From a virus, in the IMG/VR virus record IMGVR_UViG_3300032144_000030, positions 1 through 39,783 of that record: a stretch of DNA of 39,783 nucleotides; one strand, 5' to 3'. Position numbers and translations under genes: made by a program. Shown here piece by piece: positions 1,626 to 36,595 of this stretch. The notes below the pieces were generated by a model. It was not told the DNA's origin. It saw nothing but the letters and a program-made list of their open reading frames with translations, and did not search any database. Numbering within the stretch: the stretch's first letter is position 1; the number at the start of each line of letters is the position of its first letter.

Positions 1626-3973
1626 CCATCCGACTTCTACTTTCGATTTTTCTCGCCTCCGCGTTTTCAGCATCGGCGGCGAACGTGCGGACTTATTTCG
1701 TCAACCCGGACGGCGACACCGCCGACACGAATATCTATTTCATCACCGCGATTGGTAGCAACGTCCTCAGCGGTGGAGGAGTCATTACGCGTGGTGTCCC
1801 GTTGCGCGTCACTCCCCGCAGCGACGGCGTTGCAACCAATAGTCTCAGCATCGGTCATTACGCCATCAGTAATCGCTTTCTCGGGCAGGGCTTGGTGATG
1901 CGCGTCCCGCTGGATACCGGCTCGACGGTTTACGATTACACCAACCTGCTCATCAGTGGCTACAACACCTTCGTCACGATTGAACACGGCACGAATGATG
2001 TGGTGACATCAAACGAGATCACCAACGCGCTTGGATATGTTCCGGCGCAAGGTATTGAGACGACGAACAATCTTGCAGGCAAGGCAGGCACAAACGAGAC
2101 GCGGGCAATCATCTTCACCAATTCAGCCAACACTTTCGGCGGGGACGGCGCGGCGCTTACCGGGATTCCGCAAGCCGGTGTGTCCGGCCTGCCGGCGGCG
2201 CTCGGGGCGAAGGCGAACACCAACACGCCGGTCCTTTATTACCCGACCATCTACGGCATCAACACGAACCTGCCCTATTCCTCGAACCTGAACATTTTCC
2301 GGACGTTCGTGCCGCTCACGAATCATTACGCCGGCCGGCTGGCTTACAATGAGTGGTGGACCTACGGCTCGCAGACGGACAATGGCGAGGGCATTTATAG
2401 TCGTGGCTGGAACCACAGCCCCACCGGCCACATTGACACGAATTTTCACAGCTTCCTGGAAAATGTGGAATTGAACTGGGATCCCAGTGCGCCGTCCGCC
2501 GACCGCCAGATTGAATACTACCTCGAATTTACGCCGCGTTCCAACGGGTCTCCAGCGCGCGTCTTCGGTTTGACCCTGGAAACCAACTTCATGGATGCCC
2601 GCTTCAACGCGGATTATTTCGGGGTGGCGGATCCTTATTCCAACATCCCCTCATTCTCGGTGGACCCGGCTCGCGACAACGATTCCGCAGTCATGATCTT
2701 GAAGGGCATCTTCAAGGTGCGCACCAATGCCGCGAGCGGCGGGCAGGTGGTGTTGGAGGGCGGGCAACTTCAGCACACCGTGCCGAGCGGATTCACGGCG
2801 TCCTTCGTGGTCAGTGGCGTGGATTGGGACAACGGCCAGGGCGTGCGCCCGGATTTCTTCCTCCACAGCACCGGCACGAGCAAGGCGTGGACAACGACGG
2901 GTTTCACCAACATCAACTTCACGCGGGCGGCGCTGGCCTTGAGCAACGGCACGCCCTCGCGCGTGATGATGTTTGCCGCTGGAAGCCTCGTCACCAATGT
3001 TGGACACGCAGACATTCTCAAGGGCGACGGATCGGCGGCGGTTTCCGGCACGGACTACACCACGTTGGCGCAGTTGCAGGACTCCACCAACACCAGCCGG
3101 ATTACTTTTGACGCCGAATGGGACAGCATCGGCGAAATCGAAACCGCCATCGGCGCAGCAAACATCCTCCTTGAAACCGAGATTGATGCGTCGTCGGAAC
3201 TCGCAGCCTTGATGGATGACGAGACAGGTAGCGGTGGATTGGTTTTCAGCAACGCGCCATCAATTCGCAATCCATCAATCGCCGGCACGCTCTACGCTGA
3301 CGCGCTTGAAGCCACCAACGGCAGCGCAATGACGCTGACCGCTGGCGGTGTGACGATGACGATCGGCAGCGGCGCGGTATCGGTTGGGACTCCTTACTAT
3401 TTCAGTCAGGTGGTCAACCCATACAACGCGACCACCTGGAACGGCAGCACACGGCTGGCGACGGAAGACGACGTGCGCGACAAGATTGAATCCATGTCGG
3501 TTTCAAGCGGGTATCACGGATGGGAAACGAACACAGCGGCGGCGAACAGTTACAAATCGACAAACAATATCTCCACCGATGGAAATTACGGCATCGGCGG
3601 CAATCTCAACATCACCGGCTCGCTCGTCGGCAACGGTGGCGGCTTGACGAATCTGCAAAACACCGCCGTCCAATATCCGACCAACGTCGCCGCGAGTGCG
3701 ACCACGCCCGCCTTCAGTTTGACGGGCGGCGTCGTCTATCAAGACTTGAGCACGAACGCCACGTTTCAATTCCTCGCTCCGTCCGGTATCAGCACGACGA
3801 ACTATCAGACGTGCGTGAAGCTTGTCACTAATTCCCTCGGCACGCTCATAGCTATGATTGCCCCGGCGAACTGCCACACGCAGGGCACATGGAACGCCAC
3901 CAGCGTTACGGCCGTGACCTTCTTCAACAACGCAGGCCGATGGACAAACGCAATCGCAACCCCGTTATGGTAA
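1622..3973 (+). CDS. Tail-fibre-like protein with an N-terminal signal peptide
   Basis: A 783-residue beta-rich protein. Residues 1-20 form a typical Sec signal (MTIRLLLSIFLASAFSASA, then ANV). The rest carries phage fibre signatures: ITNALGYVPAQ near residue 135, DDETGSGGLVF near 532, WNGSTRLATEDDVRDKIES near 607, and NGGGLTNL-type and GDGAALTGI-type turns that recur in trimeric fibre shafts. These motifs are well known in tail fibres that bind host receptors. A Sec signal on such a protein is odd, because virion proteins normally assemble in the cytoplasm. Alternatives are a surface or periplasmic fibre, or a hydrophobic helix used as a virion anchor. The start shares ATGA with 1293-1625. 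Confidence 0.8.
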   Translation: MTIRLLLSIFLASAFSASAANVRTYFVNPDGDTADTNIYFITAIGSNVLSGGGVITRGVPLRVTPRSDGVATNSLSIGHYAISNRFLGQGLVMRVPLDTGSTVYDYTNLLISGYNTFVTIEHGTNDVVTSNEITNALGYVPAQGIETTNNLAGKAGTNETRAIIFTNSANTFGGDGAALTGIPQAGVSGLPAALGAKANTNTPVLYYPTIYGINTNLPYSSNLNIFRTFVPLTNHYAGRLAYNEWWTYGSQTDNGEGIYSRGWNHSPTGHIDTNFHSFLENVELNWDPSAPSADRQIEYYLEFTPRSNGSPARVFGLTLETNFMDARFNADYFGVADPYSNIPSFSVDPARDNDSAVMILKGIFKVRTNAASGGQVVLEGGQLQHTVPSGFTASFVVSGVDWDNGQGVRPDFFLHSTGTSKAWTTTGFTNINFTRAALALSNGTPSRVMMFAAGSLVTNVGHADILKGDGSAAVSGTDYTTLAQLQDSTNTSRITFDAEWDSIGEIETAIGAANILLETEIDASSELAALMDDETGSGGLVFSNAPSIRNPSIAGTLYADALEATNGSAMTLTAGGVTMTIGSGAVSVGTPYYFSQVVNPYNATTWNGSTRLATEDDVRDKIESMSVSSGYHGWETNTAAANSYKSTNNISTDGNYGIGGNLNITGSLVGNGGGLTNLQNTAVQYPTNVAASATTPAFSLTGGVVYQDLSTNATFQFLAPSGISTTNYQTCVKLVTNSLGTLIAMIAPANCHTQGTWNATSVTAVTFFNNAGRWTNAIATPLW

Positions 3974-23623: not shown

Positions 23624-23987
23624 TCTCCCCTCAATCGAATCCATCCACTGGGACTTCAAGACCGATGCCATGCGCCGCATGGCCGTCGCGGTCTGCAAGC
23701 TGGCAATCTCCAAAGGGCCGGAAACATTCTCCGCAAACAATCTTCCAGCATTTGACCACGGCGGCAGCGGCGTGGCCGGCGTCATATTTCATCGTCTCGT
23801 GAGCGATGGGGTGTTGAGCCGGGTAATGTTTTACCACGGCGTGGCGGCTTTTCCTGTCGTCGTCCTGAATCCTGGCGGGAACAAAATCAGCGTTTACCGG
23901 CTGAAATCTTGTTCGCTGGCGCTGCGGTTGATTGAGCTTAACGGCGGTCAAGAGCCGCAAGTCAAGCAGGAGGAAATGGCGATATGA
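23616..23987 (+). CDS. Hypothetical protein
   Basis: A 123-residue protein. It has a winged-helix-like layout: helix (MRRMAVAVCKLAISKGPETF), NNLP turn, a helix (GVAGVIFHRLVSDGVLSRV) and a beta wing (YRLKSC), so it may bind DNA. No family is named. It is coupled at both ends, overlapping the methyltransferase by eight bases and the pentapeptide gene as ATGA. Confidence 0.6.
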   Translation: MSNLPSIESIHWDFKTDAMRRMAVAVCKLAISKGPETFSANNLPAFDHGGSGVAGVIFHRLVSDGVLSRVMFYHGVAAFPVVVLNPGGNKISVYRLKSCSLALRLIELNGGQEPQVKQEEMAI

Positions 23988-24721
23988 AAATCCAAATTAA
24001 AAGCAGATGGAGCGGGCACATAATTTTTGAAACGGACGCGGAGAGTTTGGGCGCGGCGATTTTGGTTGCGCTAAAAGCAAGCGCGGACCTGCGCGGCGCG
24101 GACCTTCGCTGCGCGAACCTGTGCGACGCGAACCTGCGCGGCGCGAACCTGTGCGACGCGAACCTGCGCGGCGCGGACCTTCGCTGCGCGGACCTGTGCA
24201 GCGCGGACCTTCACTGCGCGGACATGCACGGTGCGAACCTGCGCGGCGCGGACCTGCGCGGCGCGGACATGCGCGGTGCGGACCTGCGCGGCGCGGACCT
24301 GCGCGGCGCGTACATGCACGGTGCGAACCTGCGCGGTGCGGACCTTCACTGCGCGGACATGCACGGTGCGAACCTGCGCGGTGCGAAAAACGCAGAGCTT
24401 CCAATCGCCGCGACCCGCATCCTTCCTGACGGCGATTTAATCGGTTGGAAGAAATGCCGACATGGAGTGATTGTAAAACTGCTTGTTCCAGCAAAAGCAA
24501 AGCGCTCTCACGCTTTCGGGCGAAAGTGCAGGGCTGAGTTTGTGGAGGTTTTGGAAGTGATGGGGAAAGAAGGCATCAGCAGTTATGACCCTGACGTGAA
24601 ATACGTCGTCGGGGAAATTGTTAAGCCAAAAGAAAAGTTTTCAGAGGATTGGCAGGACGAGTGCGCGTCCGGGATTCACTTCTTCATCACGCGACTGGAA
24701 GCGGAGAATTACGCGCTATGA
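23984..24721 (+). CDS. Pentapeptide-repeat protein with DUF5758-like C-terminus
   Basis: A 245-residue protein. Residues 34-133 are twenty perfect pentapeptides A-(D/N)-L/M-x-x (for example ADLRG, ANLCD, ADMHG), making five coils of a right-handed beta-helix. The C-terminal domain ends with ECASGIHFFITRLEAENYAL, matching the DUF5758 domain often fused to such repeats in phages. Some pentapeptide proteins mimic DNA and protect or inhibit gyrase; this function is possible but untested for the fused family. It lies between the methyltransferase and Lar-like genes. Confidence 0.85.
   Translation: MKIQIKSRWSGHIIFETDAESLGAAILVALKASADLRGADLRCANLCDANLRGANLCDANLRGADLRCADLCSADLHCADMHGANLRGADLRGADMRGADLRGADLRGAYMHGANLRGADLHCADMHGANLRGAKNAELPIAATRILPDGDLIGWKKCRHGVIVKLLVPAKAKRSHAFGRKCRAEFVEVLEVMGKEGISSYDPDVKYVVGEIVKPKEKFSEDWQDECASGIHFFITRLEAENYAL
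24083..24382 (+). repeat. Twenty tandem 15-bp coding repeats
   Basis: The pentapeptides are encoded by 20 near-identical 15-bp units (consensus GCGGACCTGCGCGGC). Codon choice is almost fixed from unit to unit, which points to recent expansion or gene conversion rather than an old diverged array. All frames on both strands stay open here as a by-product. Confidence 0.9.
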
Positions 24722-28247: not shown

Positions 28248-28417
28248 AATCACACCTTCAACTGCTCCTGCGCGAGCTTGACCGGGCGGACCTCGAGGAC
28301 GCGGTGAAAGCAGTCATTCAACGCGAGATCGAGACGCTGCTGGGCCGTAATGCCCGCGAGATTTTGGAGTTGATTGAGGTGTCGGAGGAATTGGCAAAGG
28401 AAATAACAAAAACATGA
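28244..28417 (+). CDS. Small helical protein before the annealing gene
   Basis: A 57-residue, wholly helical, acidic protein (LRELDRADLEDAVKAVIQRE, then ILELIEVSEELAKEITKT) likely to form a coiled coil. It is coupled as ATGA at both ends, directly ahead of the RecT/Bet-type gene, so it could be a partner of the annealing protein. No family recognised. Confidence 0.55.
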   Translation: MKSHLQLLLRELDRADLEDAVKAVIQREIETLLGRNAREILELIEVSEELAKEITKT

Positions 28418-29241
28418 ACACGAACACAGCAATAGTTAAGAACACACCACAAACAAAGCCATCAGCCTTAAACCTGATGGCTTCAAGGTTGAGCGTCGAG
28501 CCGGCAAAGCTTCTCGACACACTCAAGAGCACGGTCTTTCAGAAGGCAACCAACGAGGAAATGCTGGCCCTCGTCACGGTCGCCAATGAATACGACCTGA
28601 ATCCATTCCTGAAGGAGATTTACGCATTCCCCGCGAAGGGCGGCGGCATCGTGCCGATTGTCTCTGTTGATGGTTGGAACAAGATGCTGATTCGCCAGCC
28701 CGCGTTCGACGGCATCAAGTTCGCGTTTGGCTACAAGGAGGACGGCAGCCTCGACAGTTGCACGGCGACCATCTTCATCAAGGACCGCAGCCATCCGGTT
28801 GAAATCACCGAATACTTCGACGAGTGCAAACGGAACACCGATCCTTGGAACAACATGCCGCGACGGATGCTGCGCAACCGAACGCTGTGTCAGGCGTCCC
28901 GTGTTGCCTTTGGATTCTCCGGCATCCACAACGACGACGAGGCGCAGTCGTTCATTGATGTGTCGTCGTCTCCCGTGCCGTCAGAACCGCCACCGAAGAT
29001 GATTGCGGTCGCAAGTGATACCAGGCCGTCCGCGCGCGCAGAGCTTGAGGCCGTCGTGCTCGGCGCAGGCTTCACGTTTGAGCAGCTTCGCGCGTTCGGT
29101 GAGGCTTCAGGCAACATCAAGGACGCGAGCAGCGTCGGCGCGTTCTCTGAAATCTCCGAGGATGACGCCAAGCGGCTCGTCCGCGCGAAGGTTGGGCTTC
29201 TCAATTCACTGAAGTTGCAGACGGAAGGGGGTGAGAAGTGA
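28414..29241 (+). CDS. RecT/Bet-type single-strand annealing protein
   Basis: A 275-residue protein. The stretch from EYDLNPFLKEIYAFP (near residue 58) through VPIVSVDGWNKMLIRQP, then FGYKEDGSLDSCTATIFIKD, and WNNMPRRMLRNRTLCQASRV to FGFSGIHNDDEA (near 173), is the conserved core of the Bet/RecT family. These anneal single strands in homologous recombination and during phage replication. The C-terminal 80 residues (helical, ending EKTEGGEK-like) likely bind SSB or partners. No exonuclease is recognisable nearby, but several small unknown genes follow. Start shares ATGA with 28244. Confidence 0.9.
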   Translation: MNTNTAIVKNTPQTKPSALNLMASRLSVEPAKLLDTLKSTVFQKATNEEMLALVTVANEYDLNPFLKEIYAFPAKGGGIVPIVSVDGWNKMLIRQPAFDGIKFAFGYKEDGSLDSCTATIFIKDRSHPVEITEYFDECKRNTDPWNNMPRRMLRNRTLCQASRVAFGFSGIHNDDEAQSFIDVSSSPVPSEPPPKMIAVASDTRPSARAELEAVVLGAGFTFEQLRAFGEASGNIKDASSVGAFSEISEDDAKRLVRAKVGLLNSLKLQTEGGEK

Positions 29242-31607: not shown

Positions 31608-31618
31608 GTGTTTTATGA
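31604..31618 (+). repeat. 15-bp direct repeat, copy 2 of 2
   Basis: Exact repeat of 31405-31419, at the start of the radical SAM gene. The repeat supplies GGTGAG as a ribosome site before ATG 31615. Confidence 0.8.
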
Positions 31619-32568
31619 AGCCCGCCTTTTTCCTCAACATTGATATTCTCGGCGTCTGCAATCTCGCCTGCCCGACCTGCCCGCATGGGAATGATGATCG
31701 CACCTTGACGCCGCGAGGGATGATGGACCTTGAATTGTTTGAGGCGATTCTAGACAAGGCGCAGCGTGAATGCACGGTCACGGGCGTTGGTTTGTTTTCC
31801 TGGACTGAGCCTTTGTTGCATCCACACTGCGCTCTCTTTGTCACGGCCTGCAAGCTGCGCGGCATTCCCTGCCATCTCTCAACCAACCTGAACAACATCC
31901 GCAACCTGGATGCAACGCTGCGGGCTGGGCCGGACACGTTGCGTGTGTCGGTGAGTGGATCCACGAATGAAACTTATCAACAAACGCACGCGCGCGGCGA
32001 CGTGGAGCGGGTGAAGGACAATCTCGTTTTGCTTTGGCAGAGCGTGCCGGTGCGCCAAGGGACGATCCAGGTGACAGTTTTTTGGCATCGCTACAAGCAC
32101 AACGCGAACGAGGAGGATTTCATGCGGGAGTTTGCGACCGACCTTGGATTCAAATTTGAGACGTGCGAGGCGTATTTAATGCCGTTGGAAACTGTGTTGC
32201 GGCGGTGGAGTGGTGAGCGGGCGATGTTGGTGATTGAGGAACTGCTTTGGACGCCGTTACAGGTGGCGAAGCAACAGTGCGAACCGCACGCCGGCATGCC
32301 ATGTCGTTTGCAAACGCGCGAGATAACCATAGACGCCAACGGTGGGGTGCATCTGTGTTGCGCTTTATATGATCCCAAGCTTTCGCTCATTGGAAGGTTT
32401 CTCGACATGACGTTGGCTGACATTCAGGCGCGGAAGATTATGAGCGAGCAATGCTCAACCTGCCTCAAGGCTGGTGGGCATGTTTACGCAACGTTCGGTT
32501 GGAAGCGTCGGGAGCGATGGCAGCAAAAGCTGGGCAATTTACGTGCGAAAATCAGAAGTTGGATGTGA
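31615..32568 (+). CDS. Radical SAM enzyme with SPASM-like C-terminus
   Basis: A 317-residue protein. The cluster motif C15-x3-C19-x2-C22 (VCNLACPTCPHG) binds the 4Fe-4S that splits S-adenosylmethionine. A TIM-barrel-like body follows (GVGLFSWTEPLLHPH, then LSTNLNNI, LRVSVSGSTNETY), with conserved spacing for this superfamily. The end has further cysteines, a C-R motif near 230, L-C-C, and C-S-T-C, as in SPASM domains that bind an extra cluster; its W-T-E-P-L motif fits radical SAM enzymes that act on peptides or sugars. No substrate gene is obvious. The ribosome site is GGTGAG. Why a phage carries it is open; modification of host peptide, tail fibre or nucleotide are all possible. Confidence 0.85.
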   Translation: MKPAFFLNIDILGVCNLACPTCPHGNDDRTLTPRGMMDLELFEAILDKAQRECTVTGVGLFSWTEPLLHPHCALFVTACKLRGIPCHLSTNLNNIRNLDATLRAGPDTLRVSVSGSTNETYQQTHARGDVERVKDNLVLLWQSVPVRQGTIQVTVFWHRYKHNANEEDFMREFATDLGFKFETCEAYLMPLETVLRRWSGERAMLVIEELLWTPLQVAKQQCEPHAGMPCRLQTREITIDANGGVHLCCALYDPKLSLIGRFLDMTLADIQARKIMSEQCSTCLKAGGHVYATFGWKRRERWQQKLGNLRAKIRSWM

Positions 32569-32573
32569 AAACT

Positions 32574-33305
32574 ATGGCGAAACCTAATGCCTACATGAAA
32601 ATCTATTGGGGTGATCTGCTCAAAGACACACCACACCTCGACGCTGAGGGGTTCGGCTCGTATGTGCTTCTTTTGGGCGCTTATTGGTGTAGGGGTGGCC
32701 CACTTCCCGACGATGACCAATTCCTTCGCAATGTCGCGCGCTGCCCTACCGAACATTGGATGCGAATGAAGGGCAGGTTAGCTGAGTTCTTTCATGTTGA
32801 GGCTGGCCTGTGGAAACATAAACGGGTTGAGAAGGAGCTTGCCGCAGCGGAGGAGGAATATCGCCTGCAATGCGAGCGGACAAAATCCGCAACCGAGGCA
32901 AGACAACGTAACGTTGAACGTAACGACCAACGTAACGTTGACGTAACGTCCACCGTTACGAAAGACGTAACGACTATCGTAACGATTACCCAATCAGAAT
33001 CAGAATCAGAATCAGAATCAAAGTCAGAATCAAAGTCAGAATCAGAACTCGATAAAGCCGACAAAGCTTCCGGTTCGACAAAGCCGACAAAGCTCTCTGC
33101 GAGGCAAAGGGAGGCGGCAAGGCAGGCTGAGGGTGCGCTTAAGGGTGAATGGGTCAACGATGCAGGGAAGTGGGTTAATCGAATCAAGCGAGACGCAGGC
33201 AAGGTCGAACGCGTGATGAATGAGGTTTGTGATGCGATCAAAGCAGGACGCATAGCTGGCACGCCAGCGGCGTATGCGGAGGATTGCTGGAAGAGGTTCA
33301 CATGA
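32574..33305 (+). CDS. DUF1376 (YdaU-like) replication protein
   Basis: A 243-residue protein. The N-terminal 90 residues match DUF1376: MKIYWGDLLKDTPHLDAEGF, then YVLLLGAYWCRGGPLPDDD and WMRMKGRLAEFF. Such proteins take the place of replication initiators in phages and prophages. The middle is a low-complexity linker (V-T repeats and a Ser-Glu/Lys run) that overlies a DNA iteron array; the C-terminal 70 residues are helical (AKLSARQREAARQAEGA-like). GTG 32565, overlapping the previous stop as GTGA, is a possible start three codons earlier. Likely phage O-type initiator binding within its own gene. Confidence 0.8.
   Translation: MAKPNAYMKIYWGDLLKDTPHLDAEGFGSYVLLLGAYWCRGGPLPDDDQFLRNVARCPTEHWMRMKGRLAEFFHVEAGLWKHKRVEKELAAAEEEYRLQCERTKSATEARQRNVERNDQRNVDVTSTVTKDVTTIVTITQSESESESESKSESKSESELDKADKASGSTKPTKLSARQREAARQAEGALKGEWVNDAGKWVNRIKRDAGKVERVMNEVCDAIKAGRIAGTPAAYAEDCWKRFT
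32907..32984. other. Iteron array, probable replication origin
   Basis: Seven copies of CGTAACG at 32907, 32919, 32931, 32942, 32954 (inverted, CGTTACG), 32966 and 32978, spaced 12, 12, 11, 12, 12 and 12 bases. The first three are read in frame as Arg-Asn, the later direct copies in a shifted frame as Val-Thr, so the DNA motif is kept rather than the protein. Iterons inside an initiator gene followed by a simple repeat tract (32991-33050) match the layout of the lambda-type origin within gene O. Confidence 0.8.
32991..33050. repeat. Hexamer AATCAG-type tract, possible unwinding element
   Basis: About ten units of AATCAG/AAGTCAG-like sequence run directly after the iterons and encode Ser-Glu/Lys repeats. 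The tract is richer in A and T than the flanks. In lambda-like origins an AT-rich region next to the iterons melts first, so this is a candidate unwinding element. Confidence 0.55.
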
Positions 33306-33439: not shown

Positions 33440-33916
33440 ATGAGTAATCCGAAACCAGAACTTCCAGTCTATCCTTCAATGAAGAATTGCGCAGCGCGCA
33501 CGGGGTTGCCGCTGTCATTCCTTAAGCGATGCTCAACCTCTGGTTGCCCCGCCTTCGACTCATCGAACCGTGTTGACCTTAACAAACTTCTCGCATGGAT
33601 TCCGAAAGTCCTGGATTCAAAAGAGGAACTTCCAAAAGGCTTTGGGACGTGGACCGCGTTTCTCAACTCCGTCAAAGCCAAGCGCGAAGAAATCAAACTC
33701 ACCAAAGATCGCGGCGAGGTGATGTTGGTTGCCGACGCACAACAGCAGGTCTCCGAGGCTGTCGCCTACTACTTTGGAGAGCTTGACCGTCTCCTTCGCG
33801 AAATCCCGCCAGCGGTTGCCGGTATGGATGTGATTAATGTTCACGGAAAGCTCAAAGGAATCCTAAACTCACTCCGCGAAGCGGCAGCGAAGCGGTTTGA
33901 GATTGCGACCAAATGA
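33440..33916 (+). CDS. Terminase small subunit (Nu1-like)
   Basis: A 158-residue protein. The N-terminal region (SMKNCAARTGLPLSFLKRCS, then FDSSNRVDLNKLLAWI) is a winged-helix DNA-binding domain like that of Nu1, with a helical linker (VKAKREEIKLTKDRGEVM) and C-terminal helices for assembly with the large subunit. It recognises the packaging site. Leader CACACGATG without a Shine-Dalgarno. Coupled as ATGA to terL. Confidence 0.75.
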   Translation: MSNPKPELPVYPSMKNCAARTGLPLSFLKRCSTSGCPAFDSSNRVDLNKLLAWIPKVLDSKEELPKGFGTWTAFLNSVKAKREEIKLTKDRGEVMLVADAQQQVSEAVAYYFGELDRLLREIPPAVAGMDVINVHGKLKGILNSLREAAAKRFEIATK

Positions 33917-35769: not shown

Positions 35770-35975
35770 GCGATGAGCGTTTTTGTTTTTGTGAAGCCTG
35801 CGGGCAGCTAATCCCTATTCCTAAAATCAAAACCGTTCACCTGCTTTGCTGTGCGTGCAACCTTCAACCAAGGCAATGGCCGGAAAACCCAAAAACAAAG
35901 CCAGCAACCTTCCGTGAGTTGCTTGGACTTAGAGAAGACCCGAGAAGTCGAATGACTGGAGAAACATGGTCATGA
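35766..35975 (+). CDS. Small zinc-ribbon protein
   Basis: A 69-residue protein with C-x-x-C pairs (CEACG near 10 and CCACN near 29), followed by a short basic part (RELLGLREDPRSRM). Zinc ribbons in this position may bind DNA or a partner; the function is unknown. It overlaps terL and the LuxR-type gene as ATGA on each side. Confidence 0.65.
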   Translation: MSDERFCFCEACGQLIPIPKIKTVHLLCCACNLQPRQWPENPKTKPATFRELLGLREDPRSRMTGETWS

Positions 35976-36160
35976 TAAAATCCCTATCCCCTCGGCAGCG
36001 CGAAATTCTGCGCCTCGTCGCCTTCGGTAAATCAGACAAGGAGATTGCGGATGTTCTGGCGATTGGGTGCGGAACTGTGGACAAGCACATGCGGACGATC
36101 AAGGGTCGGCTGCGCGCTCGCTCGCGATCACACGCGGTTTACTTGGCGTTCTGCCGTTAG
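35972..36160 (+). CDS. LuxR/GerE-type HTH protein
   Basis: A 62-residue protein that is almost only a LuxR-type DNA-binding domain: SLSPRQREILRLVAFGKSDK, EIADVLAIGCGTVDKHMRTI, then KGRLRARSRSHAV. The T-V-x-x-H-x-x-x-I recognition helix is well kept. No receiver or sensory domain is present. The start at 35972 overlaps the previous stop as ATGA; ATG 35966 is a longer option. A palindrome lies 51 bases after its stop, so it may control the capsid genes. Confidence 0.85.
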   Translation: MIKSLSPRQREILRLVAFGKSDKEIADVLAIGCGTVDKHMRTIKGRLRARSRSHAVYLAFCR

Positions 36161-36234: not shown

Positions 36235-36595
36235 GGTGAATCAGGACGACATTGAAGCCGTCTGGCGCGAAGCATGGATTGCTGCGCCAGACGGCGCGTT
36301 GACGTTCCAGGAACAGCTAACCTCCGGCTGGCAGACCGCCCGTGCGCTCAATCGAGGTTCATCCCTCTCGAATCTCTCGCAAGGCTCATCCTCTCACGGC
36401 TACGCCACGCCCGACGCGCACACGCTGACGACGGTTGATAAGGAGCGCATCGCACTCGCTGCAATCAAGCTCTACGAGAAGCTCGCCCGCGATCTCTACA
36501 CCGACGACGAGGACGAGATTTACCAGGAGGGTATCGCCCAATTCGCCGCCGCGCCCTCGGGCGACTTCCGCGTTGATTTCTCCTGCCTGCGATGA
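36230..36595 (+). CDS. Hypothetical protein upstream of the portal
   Basis: A 121-residue acidic protein between the LuxR-type gene and the portal. It has a helix (EAVWREAWIAAPD), a Ser-rich middle (SLSNLSQGSSS) and DDEDEIYQEG near 88. The place fits a gpW-like head-tail joining protein, but size and sequence do not decide. Start GTG 36230 or GTG 36236. Shares ATGA with the portal gene. Confidence 0.5.
   Translation: MTVNQDDIEAVWREAWIAAPDGALTFQEQLTSGWQTARALNRGSSLSNLSQGSSSHGYATPDAHTLTTVDKERIALAAIKLYEKLARDLYTDDEDEIYQEGIAQFAAAPSGDFRVDFSCLR

Follow-up and report, generated by a model that had tools for sequence, protein, structure and literature searches.

The window, by which we mean the whole stretch of DNA analysed (an IMG/VR virus record of 39,783 bases), contains a set of repeated sites followed by an A+T-rich tract, both of which lie within the coding sequence of a putative replication-initiation gene. 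We consider it highly probable, judging from the sequence, that the array and the tract are the iterons and the unwinding element of a phage origin that is embedded in its own initiator gene. This was the central claim of the original prediction, and it is supported as the best reading by out-of-frame repeats throughout the DUF1376 family, by the fixed order of array and tract, and by the presence of such arrays in the genes of other initiator families. What is new is the placing of a putative DUF1376 initiator domain on a known in-gene origin design, and the finding of the same word across unrelated phage families; the family-wide DUF1376 rule together with the shared word is a stronger result than the single array.

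Repeated sites within a putative initiator gene

The protein encoded at 32574-33305 matches PF07120 (DUF1376) with E=1.7e-16 and 60.8 bits, against a Pfam gathering score of 30.1, and it is matched by PHROG primosomal proteins with E about 1e-20. In its AlphaFold model residues 1-123 and 170-243 are ordered and the linker of about 124-170 is disordered; this linker is encoded by most of the array plus the tract. Foldseek comparison with the PDB gave weak, mostly winged-helix matches (MarR, Zalpha, DnaD N-domain), none of them significant, and the predicted viral structures that match the model belong to DUF1376, Lin1244/Lin1753-type and replisome-organiser proteins. A sequence search of the PDB found no solved structure with a recognisable DUF1376 sequence. 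Modelled in isolation, the C-domain forms one long helix, unlike in the full-length model. The features of the region are as follows.

28414..29241, + strand: RecT/Bet-like annealing protein gene of the upstream recombination module (context only)
32574..33305, + strand: putative initiator gene, 243 aa, with a DUF1376 domain, a disordered linker and a C-terminal helical domain (PF07120, PHROG, AlphaFold)
32592..32843, + strand: DUF1376 domain, residues 7-90, predicted winged-helix-like, proposed iteron reader (PF07120; pLDDT about 97)
32907..32913, + strand: candidate iteron 1, CGTAACG, Arg-Asn frame
32919..32925, + strand: candidate iteron 2, CGTAACG, Arg-Asn frame
32931..32937, + strand: candidate iteron 3, CGTAACG, Arg-Asn frame
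32942..32948, + strand: candidate iteron 4, CGTAACG, Val-Thr frame, past the 11-bp step
32954..32960, - strand: candidate iteron 5, inverted (CGTTACG on the + strand), Val-Thr frame
32966..32972, + strand: candidate iteron 6, CGTAACG, Val-Thr frame
32978..32984, + strand: candidate iteron 7, CGTAACG, Val-Thr frame
32992..33048, + strand: period-6 tract (TCAGAA)n/(TCAAAG), proposed DNA unwinding element on account of its A+T content and its position after the iterons
33087..33302, + strand: helical C-terminal domain carrying the EWVNDAGKWVNRIK motif, which may recruit the helicase; common to L003-L010 with their differing N-domains
33440..33916, + strand: gene for the small subunit of terminase, with which the packaging module begins (PHROG 57, E=6.2e-8; context only)

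The array at 32907-32984 consists of seven CGTWACG words, namely six direct copies of CGTAACG and one inverted CGTTACG, at successive start-to-start steps of 12, 12, 11, 12, 12 and 12 bp. Seven copies of CGTAACG had been predicted, which is correct as to number but not as to identity, the copy at 32954 being CGTTACG; the 12-base steps interrupted by one of 11 bases are as predicted. Owing to the 11-bp step, the reading of the word moves from CGT-AAC to GTA-ACG, so that one DNA word indeed encodes Arg-Asn and then Val-Thr. CGTAACG was found 11 times on both strands of the whole window versus 3.35 expected, a count never reached in shuffles, and in 30 simulated windows no 7-mer exceeded 3 copies per 80 bp. 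When the amino-acid stretch spanned by the array was recoded synonymously 200,000 times with the window's own codon usage, CGTWACG occurred 0.5 times on average and at most 5 times, as against the 7 observed. Protein selection had been said to be insufficient to explain the array; these recodings agree with that, and the argument holds throughout the DUF1376 genes. Furthermore, the 4-5 nt spacers vary between the seven conserved words, and simple duplication thus does not explain the array. Elsewhere in the window, a pentapeptide-repeat protein (A-D/N-L-R/C-G/C type; 23984-24721) is possibly the source of the other 7-mer cluster.

The hexamer tract that was predicted to follow the repeats is present at 32992-33048; in A+T content it ranks with the highest 50-mers between 31.5 and 34.5 kb and, for 60-mers, within the top 0.2% of the whole window. 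Its likening to the lambda origin was mistaken, since the longest period-6 run of that origin is 4.

We infer from this arrangement how the origin may work. The DUF1376 N-terminal domain of the initiator, the 32574 protein, would bind the seven CGTWACG iterons and, because these lie about one helix turn apart, the bound proteins would be placed on one face of the DNA. The iteron-bound complex could then melt the period-6 tract next to it, which is rich in A+T; the C-terminal domain may recruit a DnaB-type helicase, which would give the region origin activity.

No replicative helicase, loader or lambda P-like gene was recognised in the window, where terminase genes (33440, 33913) come next and a portal gene lies at 36592. 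A helicase or loader gene directly downstream is a common context of DUF1376 genes, not a strict criterion: in three named phages the gene directly 3' encodes DnaB in L011, a DnaC/IstB-like loader in L013 and lambda P in L012 (Rac YdaU-YdaV), but none of these in the window. The GC skew, proposed as a check near 33 kb, gave no support, as the cumulative curve turns from rising to falling at about 33-36 kb and so has a maximum there, not a minimum, which is the sign opposite to that of a bacterial origin. Little weight should be placed on this, since the test is poorly suited to a linear phage contig from a metagenome. When 1.2 kb of the window was compared with named phages at the nucleotide level, no match was obtained.

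Two other observations concern the surroundings. Directly upstream of the replication gene lies a radical SAM/SPASM-domain gene (31615-32568), an unusual cargo between phage recombination and replication genes, and between the terminase and portal genes the window encodes a 64-aa stand-alone LuxR/GerE-type helix-turn-helix protein (35966-36160). Among L005 (785-1000), L009 and L010, the EWVNDAGKW C-domain is found on a different N-domain and in two metagenome-assembled genomes, one of them titled Limisphaerales, which hints at a Verrucomicrobiota host.

Putative iterons and tracts throughout the DUF1376 family

We examined 82 non-redundant DUF1376 genes, using the linker only (codons 81-165) with short-period tracts masked. 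As exact 7-mer counting, by which 39% of the genes were significant, is too strict for this family, distance statistics were used instead: exact 6-mers recurring on the same strand at a given distance were scored and compared with 100 synonymous shuffles that preserve each protein and its codon usage. The linkers that follow the domain carry short repeats at 11-12 bp spacing. An 11-bp repeat was present in 58 of the 82 linkers, where the shuffles gave 13.3 on average and never more than 21; repeats at 22, 23, 33 and 34 bp were also above all shuffles, whereas those at 10, 13, 14, 20 and 25 bp were not. Since 11, 22, 23 and 34 bp are out of frame, protein selection cannot produce these repeats. 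After dereplication to 27 domains of <55% identity, the peaks at 11 bp (15, against at most 10 in 200 shuffles) and 23 bp (10, against at most 6) were retained. Two or three reading frames are used by 51 of the 56 arrays with three or more copies, and the sites of the DUF1376 arrays are conserved as DNA rather than as protein. The words themselves differ among DUF1376 phages, and include (C)AACG/CGTT types, AAGCA types, CGTGACG, CTGTGACAG and others. On a poorly resolved tree of the domain the iteron classes cluster (27 changes versus 42 when shuffled), a result that is trivial in part, as the same gene carries both the word and the domain.

The tract recurs as well. A perfect period-6 run of at least 12 is present in 42 of the 82 genes, compared with 5.2 in synonymous controls, and period 6 alone is enriched, periods 3-5 and 7-10 being found in 0-2 genes. 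About 20 different hexamers are used, and the dipeptides that they encode differ (DT, DK, SP, PE, SE and others), which again argues for selection at the DNA level. In all 37 genes scored for both elements the iterons lie upstream of the tract, with a median gap of 12 nt, and in 48 of 54 genes the A+T content of the tract is above that of the gene itself (0.63 vs 0.47). Such a position and composition are the anatomy of a putative unwinding element.

The original prediction would have been contradicted by relatives in which the protein is conserved and the motif is absent, and here the picture is mixed: the array and the period-6 tract are kept, but the word differs in some relatives. Thus, the nearest relatives use CTGTGACAG (L003) and CGTGACG (L004) while retaining array and tract, and the window's own CGTWACG is kept by L186, L138 and L164. 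Initiators and their cognate iterons normally change together, and the changed words are therefore no refutation. The array of L186 is nearly the same as that of the window, with three Arg-Asn copies, an 11-bp step and five Val-Thr copies. Between the window and L186, 51% of the N-domain is shared and the word is the same; for L003 and L138 the N-domain value is 71%, and their words have the GTNAC core in common. The C-domains are unrelated in both pairs. Conversely, L005 shares 58% of the C-domain with the window and has neither a recognisable N-domain similarity nor the GTNAC core. These natural domain swaps, few as they are, point to the N-domain as the probable reader of the word, and DUF1376 is likely an origin-binding initiator domain.

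The same word in other initiator families

Viral contigs were scanned, as DNA only, for three CGTWACG words at steps of 11-12 bp. At least 120 viral stretches were found; among the matches listed, 91 are non-redundant and 37 of these have an 11-bp step. The control word CCTWAGG, which has the same composition and symmetry, gave 62 stretches, most of those listed being protein repeats that stay in frame at 12 bp, for example GSSLGSSL and EEPKEEPK. Random loci were then scored by the match of their longest covering ORF to replication-initiation PHROGs at E<=1e-5, the contig of the window's own virus (L132) being left out of the sample. Such matches were obtained for 16 of 40 CGTWACG loci sampled from those listed versus 0 of 19 control loci (Fisher p=6e-4), a control count that leaves out one more, unscanned ORF. 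Where the longest ORF lay on the opposite strand, true initiators went unrecognised in several cases. The families with CGTWACG arrays include those of DUF1376 proteins, replisome organisers, DnaD-like loaders and O-like proteins, along with a DnaT match. Repeats of tail fibres (L143, L146) form a known class of false positives.

It is conceivable, and to us almost as probable as its opposite, that CGTWACG, with its GTNAC core and one-turn steps, is a recurrent iteron word of several unrelated phage initiator families (of DUF1376, DnaD-like, phrog_2509 and phrog_22470 types), and that the A+T-rich period-6 tract next to it is a general unwinding element of origins of this kind. The original prediction was not aware of any description of this iteron. 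This stands for the word, for which a literature search found no match as an iteron, but not for the design, which is known from lambda, Tuc2009 and TP901-1. In the titles and abstract openings of publications that mention DUF1376 there was nothing on origins.

The scan also brought to light arrays outside any ORF of at least 60 aa (L118, L133, L155, L178), which are possibly non-coding origins or other sites. Two matches to the control word, L250 and L264, look by eye like phage replication proteins, the former with 11-bp steps, and suggest that this design exists with other iteron words as well. Initiator genes of different families (L115, L199, L122) have in common CGTAACGCGTTACGTAACG, a nested and compact element with steps of 7 and 5; in L115 it is present twice or nearly so, at 202-237 and 376-399 of ORF 2411-3364.

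Known origins, alternative explanations and implications

Origins embedded in replication genes are established for Tuc2009 and TP901-1 (PMC8965321) and for lambda (PMC7466680). In Tuc2009 the origin is formed by repeats within the rep gene, to which the Rep protein binds (PMC8965321), and the Tuc2009 record carries the note "contains origin of replication". Four copies of CAACCA in this rep gene, each 11 bp from the next, fall into three frames, and a tract of purine-rich repeats comes after them; since the gene shares the layout of the window, that layout has an experimentally supported counterpart. On the other hand, Tuc2009 and TP901-1 differ from the window in having a DnaD-like N-domain instead of DUF1376, fewer copies and no perfect hexamer tract, and the Tuc2009 word is not CGTWACG. 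A scan for 11-bp and period-6 repeats did not pick out the TP901-1 rep gene. The Javan252 homologue of the Tuc2009 rep gene contains CGTAACG twice at 11 bp, and L163, found only by its CGTWACG array, belongs to the Tuc2009-type replisome organiser family.

Lambda, too, has iterons in the middle of its initiator gene, O; after them comes an A+T-rich tract whose single strand is likewise bound by O (PMC7466680). The lambda iterons, however, are 18 bp long, at steps of 20-24 bp and without a period-6 tract. With words of 7 bp, spaced 11-12 bp apart, the window does not belong to the lambda sub-type (O / ori-lambda proper). Moreover, DUF1376 is a Pfam family distinct from that of lambda O, and the window is without a recognised P-like partner. 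In the Rac prophage, which has an active origin, oriJ (PMC3945230), the DUF1376 protein YdaU is followed by a lambda P-like protein, YdaV. No mapping of oriJ to ydaU was found in the sources consulted, and the iterons of Rac (L012) are weak, unlike those of the window. A further likeness is to plasmid origins of the RepA/RepE type, in which an A+T-rich element adjoins direct repeats with a spacing of roughly one or two turns of the helix. In classic iteron plasmids, however, the iterons are located outside the rep gene, and the RepA/RepE initiators form a family unrelated to that of the window.

Repeated sites could also serve other purposes. One is that of an operator, through which the 32574 protein or a phage repressor would regulate its own operon without any role in an origin. 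Short, partly palindromic sites spaced by a helix turn suit a repressor too, and an initiator bound within its own gene would affect transcription anyway. We nevertheless regard this as improbable, because the array lies ~330 bp inside the gene and not at a promoter, because an operator has no need of the A+T-rich period-6 tract that consistently comes after the array, and because the demonstrated cases of the same layout are origins (PMC8965321, PMC7466680). The proximity of the packaging genes, with the small terminase gene starting about 450 bp downstream and terminase genes directly next, could suggest a packaging (pac) or terminase-binding site; yet the arrays of other phages precede helicase or loader genes and, across families, lie in initiator genes, which makes a packaging role very improbable.

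We give just as little credence to the view that the repeats arose by slippage and are functionless, being tolerated in a disordered protein linker. The linker is indeed predicted to be disordered, and a period-6 tract could grow in this way. However, slippage does not account for words that are conserved while their spacers vary, for inverted copies, for the frame-breaking 11-bp steps that dominate the DUF1376 family, or for the recurrence of CGTWACG in unrelated genes; control repeats that stem from protein repetition step by 12 only.

With the embedded origin as the preferred reading, DUF1376, a widespread phage domain that is still "unknown" in Pfam, would gain a definite function that can be put to the test, that of an initiator which binds the origin. 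The arrays are also a clear case of DNA-level selection within coding sequence, in which one word is kept in two or three frames. In addition, they provide a sequence rule for the origins of uncultured phages, consisting of iterons at 11-12 bp, a short gap and an A+T-rich period-6 tract, all inside the replication gene. If the reading of CGTWACG as a shared word is true, the origins of thousands of uncultured phages would be readable directly from their sequence.
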